IMG/VR virus record: IMGVR_UViG_3300042534_000383 | Coordinates: 1 to 27,405 of that record | Origin: a virus | Direction: 5' to 3' (one strand) | Length of the DNA stretch: 27,405 nucleotides | Notes under the pieces: model-generated | What the model saw: only the letters and a program-made list of their open reading frames with translations | Told to the model about the DNA's origin: nothing | Database searches by the model: none | Translations under genes and position numbers: made by a program | Shown: positions 11,012 through 22,902 of the stretch, in pieces | How the letters are laid out: each line of letters begins with the position of its first letter | Numbering within the stretch: position 1 is the first letter of the stretch

Positions 11012-12013
11012 TCAGTAGTCCCAGCGGACGCGAGGTTTTCCTTCCCTGATACCAAGATGGACAAAACCTTTTGGTGCGCCATAGCCTACTGAGTAAGGCC
11101 AGTTTTTATCGCACCAGACTTGCACTTTATAGACGTCGACTCCTTCTATGTAAAAGTCAACAGCTCCTTTAGATGGTGCATTGTAAGTATGTTCACTATT
11201 CTTGGCACCACCAACTTGCGTATTGATGGGTTCAGGACGAGAAGCGCTGGTAATAATTAACGGCTTGTTTCCAAATGCACTACGTACTTTTTCCAGGAAC
11301 TGACAGAGTTCTAATGCTGTGTTGCATTGATATTGCTTGGTGAACCGACGTGCTTCTTGATTAAGAGTCAGTTCTCCATATGTAATATTGGGCGTAATTT
11401 TATAGGTGAATGGGCTCCAAGGATTAAATTTAGGTTTCTCTGCACCACCAGGAGTTCCAGTCATGCGATCCATGATCTGGATTAATTTTGTACTGTATTC
11501 AGTATCAGTAGCGTAACCTTCTTCTTTTAATAGACGTGCACATTCATTTCGACTAGTGGCACGATTAACGCCTTTGTATCCTTTGTAGTCTTTGTACCAG
11601 CGTGTTACTAGGTAATCAACGCAGTCATACAACGTATCAAAAGCTTTGAACCAATCTTTGATGGTAACTTTCTGACCGCCGTAAACTTCCTGGGTCGAGA
11701 CGTAGCAACCTTCCCCATCTTTTGATTTGATGCCAAAGTAGTTATGGGTACAAGAAAGATGTTTGCCTTGTGCACTCTCTAAGTACCACTGTGCAGCAAC
11801 ACATTCTGGGAATTTGGCTCCGGCTTTTTTAGCAGCTGCAAGAACACCTTCCCACGTATTGGAAAATTCCAACTCTGGCTTTGGGTTATTACGGTACTTG
11901 ACCGCAAATTCCTCAAGTACAGAAGCCGAAATTTTTGTTTGCAACCACTCAAGGGCATCTCGCTGATGCGGAAGATTTTTAAAATGTTCAGCCGCATCAA
12001 CAAGTTTGATCAT
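11012..12013 (-). CDS. Two-domain endolysin: glucosaminidase-like plus M15 peptidase
   Basis: A 333-aa peptidoglycan hydrolase. Residues about 55-185 carry a FlgJ/LytG-type glucosaminidase signature: AAQWYLESAQGKHLSCTHNYFGIK, with E79 as likely acid, and YATDTEYSTKLIQIMDR near the domain end. Residues about 235-333 match M15 peptidases of the VanY/L-Ala-D-Glu class: SEHTYNAPSKGAVDFY supplies H275 and D286, and GFVHLGIRE supplies H319 of the zinc site. The two activities would cut glycan and stem peptide together. There is no signal peptide, so it would need a holin or act from the virion. It follows the tail-fibre-assembly-like gene by 5 bp and precedes a 53-aa gene. Domain calls are well supported. 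Whether it is the main endolysin is uncertain, because a separate lysozyme is encoded near 22.5 kb. Confidence 0.85.
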   Translation of the reverse strand: MIKLVDAAEHFKNLPHQRDALEWLQTKISASVLEEFAVKYRNNPKPELEFSNTWEGVLAAAKKAGAKFPECVAAQWYLESAQGKHLSCTHNYFGIKSKDGEGCYVSTQEVYGGQKVTIKDWFKAFDTLYDCVDYLVTRWYKDYKGYKGVNRATSRNECARLLKEEGYATDTEYSTKLIQIMDRMTGTPGGAEKPKFNPWSPFTYKITPNITYGELTLNQEARRFTKQYQCNTALELCQFLEKVRSAFGNKPLIITSASRPEPINTQVGGAKNSEHTYNAPSKGAVDFYIEGVDVYKVQVWCDKNWPYSVGYGAPKGFVHLGIREGKPRVRWDY

Positions 12014-21198: not shown

Positions 21199-21543
21199 AT
21201 GAACCACGCAGCTTCTTTCCTTGATGCGTTTGTTCAAGACGAGGTTATGTGTCGGTGTCTTGACGAAGAAGACTTCGGTCAACCTCTCGCAAACGAAGAA
21301 AATGATGTACCCTTATATGACATGTACAACAGAGGTTTAGTTGCATGCGAACAAGGGCTGGAAAGGAATCCATTAAACATCGAGGGGATGAAGCGTCCCG
21401 GACTGACGGGCTTGATTCCCTCAATGGAGGAGGGACTAGCAATGGGAGCATCACCGAAGCCCCGCTCTTTAGTTTTGGAACTGGAAGAGCCGGACGAGAA
21501 GGAGAGGATGCTGTCAGCGAAAAGACTTGGTTTGAGCCGGTAA
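21199..21543 (+). CDS. Hypothetical acidic protein, 114 aa, overlapping the DUF3310 ORF out of frame
   Basis: MNHAASFLDAFVQDEVMCRCLDEEDFGQPLANEENDVPLYDMYNRGL... ending LSAKRLGLSR. The first 60 residues look like a normal acidic, helical protein. From residue 49 on its DNA is shared with the 181-aa ORF in another frame for 199 bp. A weak promoter (TTGTAG, 18 bp, TAAATA at 21191-21196) precedes the start; no Shine-Dalgarno is obvious. It may be a true overlapping gene, or its 3' part may be read in the other frame after a frameshift. No family recognised. Confidence 0.5.
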   Translation: MNHAASFLDAFVQDEVMCRCLDEEDFGQPLANEENDVPLYDMYNRGLVACEQGLERNPLNIEGMKRPGLTGLIPSMEEGLAMGASPKPRSLVLELEEPDEKERMLSAKRLGLSR

Positions 21544-21890
21544 GTACTGCGTCACCTGACGTACTTACTTTTGGTGAATGCAAGGATGGTGTTTGCCCAG
21601 TTCCCTGGGCCACCAAACCGTTAGAGAACTCAATCTTTACGTTTGATGGACCTCCTGTAATCAAGGAGGATGAAGTCAATCATCCGTCGCACTATGTCGA
21701 AACAGGCGGTATCGAGTGCATTGAAGCAATCGAAGCTCAGTTGACTCCAGAGGAATATCGCGGTTACCTCAAAGGCAATATCGCCAAATACCTGTGGCGT
21801 GAACGTCTTAAAGGCGGACTCACCTCATTAAAAAAGGCCCAGTGGTACCTGGACCGTTTAGTGCAACTTGACGATATTCAAAACGGCTGA
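21345..21890 (+). CDS. DUF3310 (T7 gp1.7-like nucleotide kinase) protein, 181 aa
   Basis: The C-terminal 75 residues (DEVNHPSHYVETGGIECIEAIEAQLTPEEYRGYLKGNIAKYLWRERLKGGLTSLKKAQWYLDRLV) match DUF3310, with the expected HPxHY, GxECIxxI, GNxxKYxWR and LxKAxWYLxRL blocks. T7 gp1.7, the studied member, phosphorylates dGMP/dTMP, so nucleotide supply is the likely role here next to dcd. Residues 1-70 (MRTRAGKESIKHRG... GGGTSNGSI) are Gly/Ser/Arg rich and unlike the family. They overlap the previous ORF in a second frame, so the true start may lie further in, or the protein may arise by frameshift from the 114-aa ORF. The domain call is firm; the start is not. Confidence 0.82.
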   Translation: MRTRAGKESIKHRGDEASRTDGLDSLNGGGTSNGSITEAPLFSFGTGRAGREGEDAVSEKTWFEPVSTASPDVLTFGECKDGVCPVPWATKPLENSIFTFDGPPVIKEDEVNHPSHYVETGGIECIEAIEAQLTPEEYRGYLKGNIAKYLWRERLKGGLTSLKKAQWYLDRLVQLDDIQNG

Positions 21891-22183
21891 AGATCGTCGT
21901 CTTCATCGTCCTCGTCGTCGCTGTACACACAAGCGGCGGCGAGTTCTGCTAGCTCTAAATCTGTGGGCCAGTCGACATCAATATCAATGTTTTCACCAGC
22001 CATGATGTCTTTGATGGCATGCCATTCCATCAAACGTTGATGGTAGAGATTCAGTAGGGCGGAATACAGTTCTTCCCATGTCATCTCTTGGGCCTGAAGC
22101 TCAGCTTTGCGCATTGCAAACTGCAGCTCCAAAGGTAGTTCAAACTCCCGTGGTTCTACCGAACGCTCCATGCCACTCTGCAT
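21878..22183 (-). CDS. NblA-like phycobilisome degradation adaptor with acidic tail, 101 aa
   Basis: Residues 14-61 (FELPLELQFAMRKAELQAQEMTWEELYSALLNLYHQRLMEWHAIKDI) align without gaps to the two-helix core of NblA as I remember it: ELxLExQF, an Arg two residues later, QxxxM(S/T), and LxxLYxQ. NblA dimers bind phycobilisomes and hand them to Clp protease, which bleaches the cell. Phage copies are known, for example in a Microcystis phage. This protein is longer than the usual ~60 aa because of a highly acidic C-terminus (DDEDDEDDDLQPF). TAGGA lies five bases before the ATG at 22183. It overlaps the DUF3310 gene tail to tail by 13 bp. A similar helical hairpin of unrelated function cannot be excluded without a search. 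Confidence 0.62.
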   Translation of the reverse strand: MQSGMERSVEPREFELPLELQFAMRKAELQAQEMTWEELYSALLNLYHQRLMEWHAIKDIMAGENIDIDVDWPTDLELAELAAACVYSDDEDDEDDDLQPF

Positions 22184-22189
22184 TAATTC

Positions 22190-22211
22190 CTAGCAATTAT
22201 TCTAATGCTAG
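22190..22211. promoter_or_regulatory. Inverted repeat and TAGAAT -10 element upstream of the NblA-like gene
   Basis: CTAGCA (22190-22195) and TGCTAG (22206-22211) flank an AT-rich core that on the minus strand contains ATTAGAATAA, with TAGAAT as a one-mismatch -10. The same 10-mer lies upstream of the HNH gene at 26660-26669. The hairpin also overlaps the lysozyme stop codon, so it could end or slow transcription coming from that gene. Confidence 0.4.
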
Positions 22212-22867
22212 CTGTTAAACAGCAGATCTAGCTCTTCTGACGCAAAGGTGCACCAAGGGTCTTCGTCGATATCAAAGTCGTTAGCAAACTTAGACAGGAC
22301 GTATGGATTGATGTGTTCTTCCAGGGATCTGATTGCCCTGACCTGGTGGGGAGCAGCGGTGTAATTACGGAAGGCAGCAAGCAAGATCTCTGTTGAGGAC
22401 CAGGGATTGGCGTCCACTTCCGCAAGGAACAAACCAATTTCTTCCCGGCGGCGATCAACGAGAGTGCCAACGACGGAATGATTTTGATCAAAGATCCACT
22501 GCCCCATTTCCTTGGTGGCCTCACAGAAGTCTTCCCGTTCAATGCAATCGATCACATTGCTGTAGAGGAAGGGCTCCCATCCGATGGAGTGAATGAAAGA
22601 GATAAGAGCCTGACGCATGCTGTCATCTAGTCCCAGGTTCAGCTTAATTAGCTGGGTGTCAATGATAGAAGCTTCGTGGAACAGATACTCCAGTGCTTTT
22701 TCTTTACTGCAGCACTGACCACGTTTAACAGGAGAACCATCGGGATAGAACTGAGTTCCAAACCCGATGGTGTAGGGCTCTTCTCCTGTAGCCGGATCTG
22801 GATACGCCTTTTCGTTAAACCCTTCGTGTTTACGAATAAGGTTAATCGCACGCGAAAGATCCGACAT
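22208..22867 (-). CDS. T4-type lysozyme (GH24 endolysin-like), 219 aa
   Basis: A muramidase-like protein that would cut the MurNAc-GlcNAc bond of peptidoglycan. LIRKHEGFNEKAYPDPATGEEPYTIGFGT has the GH24 catalytic set: E15 in HEGF, D24 nine residues later as in T4 lysozyme, and T33 before GFGT. ALISFIHSIGW and LVDRRREEIGLFL are the usual later blocks. The C-terminal 60 residues extend beyond a minimal lysozyme and end in acidic FASEELDLLFNS, possibly a localisation or virion-binding tail. I chose the ATG at 22867; an in-frame TTG at 22891 lies inside the leader hairpin. No signal peptide. It is a second cell-wall hydrolase in addition to the endolysin at 11-12 kb. The enzyme class is well supported. 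Confidence 0.85.
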   Translation of the reverse strand: MSDLSRAINLIRKHEGFNEKAYPDPATGEEPYTIGFGTQFYPDGSPVKRGQCCSKEKALEYLFHEASIIDTQLIKLNLGLDDSMRQALISFIHSIGWEPFLYSNVIDCIEREDFCEATKEMGQWIFDQNHSVVGTLVDRRREEIGLFLAEVDANPWSSTEILLAAFRNYTAAPHQVRAIRSLEEHINPYVLSKFANDFDIDEDPWCTFASEELDLLFNS

Positions 22868-22889
22868 GGAGGTAACTATTATTACCTCC
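22868..22889. promoter_or_regulatory. Perfect hairpin that includes the lysozyme Shine-Dalgarno
   Basis: In the mRNA sense (minus strand), GGAGGTAA, a 6-base loop TAATAG and TTACCTCC form a perfect 8-bp hairpin that ends directly before the ATG at 22867. GGAGGT is a near-perfect Shine-Dalgarno but is fully paired in the hairpin. Unpaired, it would lie 16 bases from the ATG, too far for good initiation. A translational brake on lysozyme is the natural reading. Confidence 0.6.
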
Positions 22890-22902
22890 AATCATACACA
22901 AA

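Follow-up and report, generated by a model that had tools for sequence, protein, structure and literature searches.

A short reading frame directly behind the lysozyme gene of a viral DNA raises the question of whether its product is a phage-borne relative of NblA, the protein that delivers phycobilisome proteins to ClpC (PMC7966870), and, if so, what might be added by the acidic extension that follows its NblA-like core. The window, by which we mean the whole stretch of DNA analyzed here, is a virus record of 27405 bases, and the positions of the gene, its parts and its neighbors are collected in Table 1.

Table 1. Features of the window in and around the NblA-like gene.
Feature	Position	Strand	Evidence or remark
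NblA-like ORF, whole	21878..22183	(-)	101 aa, ATG start, C-terminal extension
Predicted NblA-like helix-loop-helix core, residues 13-63	21995..22147	(-)	Pfam/hhalign (residues 13-62), AlphaFold2 helices
Predicted extension helix, residues 75-87, part of conserved PTDxELxxLA	21923..21961	(-)	AlphaFold2 and conservation
Acidic run, residues 89-97, predicted disordered	21893..21919	(-)	pLDDT, D/E content
LQPF carboxy-terminal tip, residues 98-101	21881..21892	(-)	PF conservation in relatives
Phage lysozyme/endolysin, upstream, 24-nt gap	22208..22891	(-)	PF00959 E 4.9e-16, PHROG endolysin
Convergent DUF3310 gene	21345..21890	(+)	PF11753; overlaps 3' end of NblA-like gene by 13 bases
Terminator-like hairpin, just past NblA-like gene	21836..21855	(-)	3 sites in region vs 1.4 expected

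The NblA-like Gene and Its Place in S-EIV1-like Phages

The reading frame was taken to be a real gene because its dN/dS values lie between 0.02 and 0.07 among the computable pairs of relatives, which indicates that it is under purifying selection. M5 (codon 22169-22171) is invariant among the non-redundant relatives, and residues 1-4 are absent from about half of them, so that the true start may be M5, giving a protein of 97 aa.

The surroundings of the gene are nearly constant. Of the distinct relatives whose upstream sequence was long enough to judge, all 170 are immediately preceded by a lysozyme gene in the same orientation, and a convergent DUF3310 gene lies downstream in 150 of 151. So as not to select on the NblA-like gene, relatives of the lysozyme were also collected in its place; among the distinct lysozyme genes whose downstream sequence sufficed, 85 of 86 had the NblA-like gene directly behind them, and the one exception was a distant lysozyme (24% identity). 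The terminator-like hairpin is a weak candidate for the end of a transcript carrying the lysozyme and NblA-like genes. Elsewhere, the window encodes a second cell-wall enzyme with glucosaminidase and peptidase M15 domains, far from the lysozyme (11012-12013, - strand), a GDP-mannose 4,6-dehydratase truncated at the window start (2-787, + strand), and a small ORF with an ERVNGRVAML motif that resembles high-light-inducible proteins (1754-2005, - strand; PHROG 178 at an E value of only 0.06, and no match in Pfam).

Relatives of the NblA-like protein are encoded by at least 511 stretches in IMG/VR. The sole relative among annotated phage records, with 65% identity over 81 residues, is a 'hypothetical protein' of Synechococcus phage S-EIV1 (AHV82245.1). 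This direct orthologue likewise follows a lysozyme gene, and it carries the extension, with an acidic run longer than that of the window protein, and an ...ELAPF end. Gene order in S-EIV1 is as in the window (HNH, large ORF, lysozyme and NblA-like genes, with DUF3310-type and dCTP deaminase genes on the opposite strand), and both further encode a primase, a SAM decarboxylase and a glycosyltransferase. In each of twelve records 72-95 kb in length, S-EIV1 among them, the NblA-like gene occurs exactly once, and this single copy, together with the fixed place, indicates that it is a core gene of S-EIV1-like cyanophages. An earlier statement that phage nblA genes are few, made in the first-pass annotation of this DNA, does not hold in this lineage, given the IMG/VR and lysozyme counts.

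The group including S-EIV1 is among the five most abundant groups of marine cyanophages and makes up 3.3% of cyanophage content; where photosynthesis genes were displayed by cyanophage group, nblA was shown for other groups and none for the S-EIV1 group (PMC5332604). Passages of further papers that name both S-EIV1 and nblA draw no link between the two. It is possible that the S-EIV1 gene was noticed before, for example in the original S-EIV1 paper.

Relationship of the Core to NblA

The first-pass annotation had aligned the core with NblA without gaps, and this was confirmed by several kinds of search. PF04485 (NblA) was the sole convincing Pfam match of the protein, spanning residues 14-60 with 24.2 bits (E 4.5e-5; curated cut-off, 25 bits), and a six-frame search of the window gave 25.3 bits, above the cut-off. 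When the protein was compared with the PDB using phmmer, NblA 1OJH was the best match (residues 14-59), at an E value of only 0.057, and 1OJH was again best when a profile of 28 relatives was used (E 4.8e-4). A profile of 27 diverse relatives was then aligned by hhalign to a profile of eight NblA proteins, comprising four cyanobacterial proteins of the Anabaena/Nostoc, Kovacikia and Chroococcidiopsis type, two further PDB chains and two phage proteins, and 50 gap-free columns were obtained over residues 13-62 (probability 93.8, E 1.7e-7). The score of 40.3 compares with a maximum of 15.9 in 60 column-shuffled profiles and with 11.1 for the reversed profile, and these controls rule out a chance likeness of helical hairpins. 

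PF04485 matched every one of the 28 proteins in one alignment of relatives and 24 of the 27 in a more diverse one, and in each of eight S-EIV1-like records the NblA-like gene was its only match. NCBIfam and PHROGs, searched with the NblA-like protein, did not recognize it. The positions that the core has in common with NblA are strongly constrained among the relatives, and from these comparisons we consider homology of the core to NblA to be well supported. AlphaFold2 predicted a helix-loop-helix hairpin (helices 18-32 and 36-63, pLDDT ∼92), and a core-only model had the same form as the full-length model. Foldseek/VIA-align searches with the whole and core models returned no usable match, the hairpin being so short that the comparison is uninformative.

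Cyanobacterial NblA proteins (PF04485; 1OJH, 2Q8V, and 3CS5) have the ∼50-residue helix-loop-helix core in common with the NblA-like protein, with ∼28% identity. Known or predicted phage NblA proteins include those of Ma-LMM01, MaMV-DC, PaV-LD, cyanopodoviruses, S-TIM5, and S-SCSM1 (PMC9602691). Although also phage-borne, the Ma-LMM01 and PaV-LD proteins (PF04485 E values of 1.9e-14 and 1.2e-12) are much nearer to cyanobacterial NblA than is the window protein. S-SCSM1 ORF237 and the NblA-like proteins of cyanopodoviruses, assigned by HHpred (PMC9602691), are likewise distant NblA homologues from phages of picocyanobacteria. In the whole records of S-TIM5, S-RIP1, and Syn5, PF04485 found no match, so that the published NblA assignments were not reproduced by Pfam. 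An unannotated frame of S-RIP1 (HQ317388, L286, 34572-34949, + strand) contains a short NblA-like segment, IDLTIEQDLKMRQIKDALE..., with an E value of 0.0055 against the NblA profile; unlike the window protein, this frame stops soon past the hairpin.

A Conserved Acidic Extension

The protein had been described as ∼40 residues longer than NblA, with an Asp/Glu tail absent from NblA proteins, and each of these points was upheld for the proteins sampled. There are 38 aa beyond the NblA match, and 53% of the last 17 aa are Asp or Glu; among 22 window proteins checked, no other has a comparably acidic end. The extension is lacking from the NblA proteins sampled, which were the PDB chains (54-65 aa), plasmid-borne cyanobacterial proteins (Nostoc, Kovacikia, and Chroococcidiopsis; ∼65-70 aa), and the tailless proteins of phages Ma-LMM01 (∼65 aa), PaV-LD (∼54 aa), and S-SCSM1 (54 aa). 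In contrast to the canonical NblA size of ∼50-70 aa, the 133 distinct and complete relatives are 93-106 aa long, and all of them carry the extension, with 34-46 residues past the NblA-like core and a net charge of -10 to -19.

The earlier description of the tail as acidic is correct but incomplete, since the extension also has a conserved segment bearing PTDxELxxLA and predicted to be helical, and a Pro-Phe tip. AlphaFold2 gave residues 90-101 a pLDDT below 50. For the extension alone, dN/dS is 0.02-0.31 among the computable pairs, which indicates that it is kept by purifying selection.

One scan of genome contigs for a host-borne extended protein returned only a phage-like contig in an archaeal metagenome-assembled genome, and the plasmids searched contained none. 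Contig PAZU01000015.1 (L083/L184), binned as Euryarchaeota, carries an S-EIV1-like NblA-family gene and is likely to be a mis-binned cyanophage. The phage-like contigs C40 and C39 (L181 and L183, from a genome labeled Euryarchaeota) and their relatives L279-L283 encode NblA-like proteins of 113-115 aa whose acidic extension, with the end ELDMD[SA]IVLE.EE, is unrelated, and extended NblA-like proteins may thus have arisen more than once.

The Pro-Phe Tip Resembles the End of SSB

The window protein ends DDDLQPF. A Pro-Phe pair lies within the last six residues of 130 of the 133 relatives, and in 99 it is exactly terminal and follows an acidic run (acidic-x-Pro-Phe-COOH). Four relatives end TPFFG, and in a derived clade (17 of 55 sequences, support 0.98, in a tree of non-redundant sequences from which the tip was excluded) DPF is followed by three or four further residues. 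The possibility that this end is imposed by the overlapping DUF3310 gene was ruled out, since the pair persists in 54 of 55 relatives in which the overlap is only 1-5 bases, and in 10 of 11 with no overlap.

The carboxy terminus of SSB (SSB-Ct, DDDIPF) docks many proteins of DNA metabolism by means of the side chain of the terminal Phe, the terminal carboxylate, and the acidic residues (PMC5872125, PMC10164576). In most relatives the NblA-like protein has the same form, with acidic residues and then Pro-Phe at a free carboxy end, as does the window protein. The SSB of S-EIV1 (PF00436) ends in Pro-Phe, as do all 15 SSB orthologues in related phages, mostly after acidic residues. Mechanical gene calling, applied to the window, to three phage genomes, and to parts of S-EIV1, gave 497 products, of which only 10 ended in Pro-Phe (four SSB, four NblA-like, and two others). 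To our reading, the acidic-x-Pro-Phe end shared with the SSB of these phages and with SSB-Ct is new here. Because the NblA-like protein has no Pfam match to SSB and its AlphaFold2 model is all-helical with no OB-fold, it is not itself an SSB. A 127-aa protein of another S-EIV1-like phage (P0002; L428, 4550-4933, - strand) also has an acidic Pro-Phe tip, TLEEVPF; by eye it resembled an SSB, but Pfam, PHROG, and PDB searches found no match, and we assign it to no family.

These observations raise the possibility that the tip serves as a mimic of SSB-Ct, docking SSB-interacting proteins (primase, PriA, RecO, RecG, ExoI, and others) and either delivering them to Clp or competing with SSB for them. 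The terminal position of the motif, its survival where the genes do not overlap, and its rarity outside SSB and the NblA-like family would all fit. However, the derived clade does not have the terminal Phe carboxylate, yet the SSB of one genome from that clade still ends in Pro-Phe; moreover, Pro-Phe is a motif of two residues. We regard this explanation as rather unlikely. A combination, in which the NblA core and a mimic of the SSB tip would together take viral or host replication and repair proteins to Clp, or hold the breakdown of the antenna at the viral replication center, seems to us more doubtful still.

The Lys53 Position

Lys53 of Anabaena NblA is a residue that we take to have a role in phycobilisome binding. 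A basic residue occupies this position in all eight NblA proteins sampled, in contrast to just one of the 133 NblA-like relatives; the window protein is among those that have lost it. All 133 have Lys or Arg at position 58, one helical turn before the Lys53 position. Because the basic residue is missing, contacts with the antenna may differ from those of NblA, and for the same reason we do not class the protein as a proven canonical NblA.

Loss of this residue, and the addition of an acidic arm to the core, would also be expected of an NblA antagonist, whose core would bind host NblA or ClpC but deliver no antenna, so that phycobilisomes are protected during infection; the possible high-light-inducible ORF in the window would be weakly in line with this. 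On the other hand, the core positions shared with NblA are those under strong constraint, and activity has been reported for the characterized phage NblA proteins, with loss of phycobilin upon their expression (PMC9602691). An antagonist, as judged from these comparisons, is quite improbable. Equally hard to favor is a small helical protein of lysis or the virion, unrelated to NblA in function and resembling it through distant homology or convergence, since its invariant place behind the endolysin gene and the Pfam score right at the cut-off are set against NblA being the specific best match in Pfam and the PDB, a result reached in several ways and backed by shuffle controls that were clean, and against the isolation of its relative S-EIV1 on Synechococcus, a group with phycobilisomes.

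Proposed Function

We favor, with moderate confidence, the reading that the gene encodes a divergent, phage-borne proteolysis adaptor of the NblA type with an added docking arm, and that it belongs to the core genes of the S-EIV1-like lineage. The protein would be made together with the endolysin, and its core, probably dimeric like NblA, would bind phycobiliproteins of the host antenna and bring them to the host ClpC protease, so that breakdown of the antenna during infection would release amino acids and lower light absorption. That the core would grip the antenna and feed Clp follows from the established biology of NblA (PMC7966870, PMC9602691), and late expression with the endolysin from gene order only; such late timing would be a poor match for the feeding of replication, which counts against this reading. 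With lower confidence, the extension may act as a flexible arm that holds a second protein by its acidic tip with the final Phe, and the grip on the substrate would thus be separated from the docking of a partner. The first-pass annotation had suggested that the tail might retarget the adaptor or tune its stability; given the SSB-like tip, docking is a guess of a more specific kind.

If the adaptor reading is true, taking apart the host antenna would belong to the core functions of the lineage and would not be the work of a gene acquired only now and then, and the conserved tail would help to show how a second docking partner can be added to a minimal Clp adaptor.
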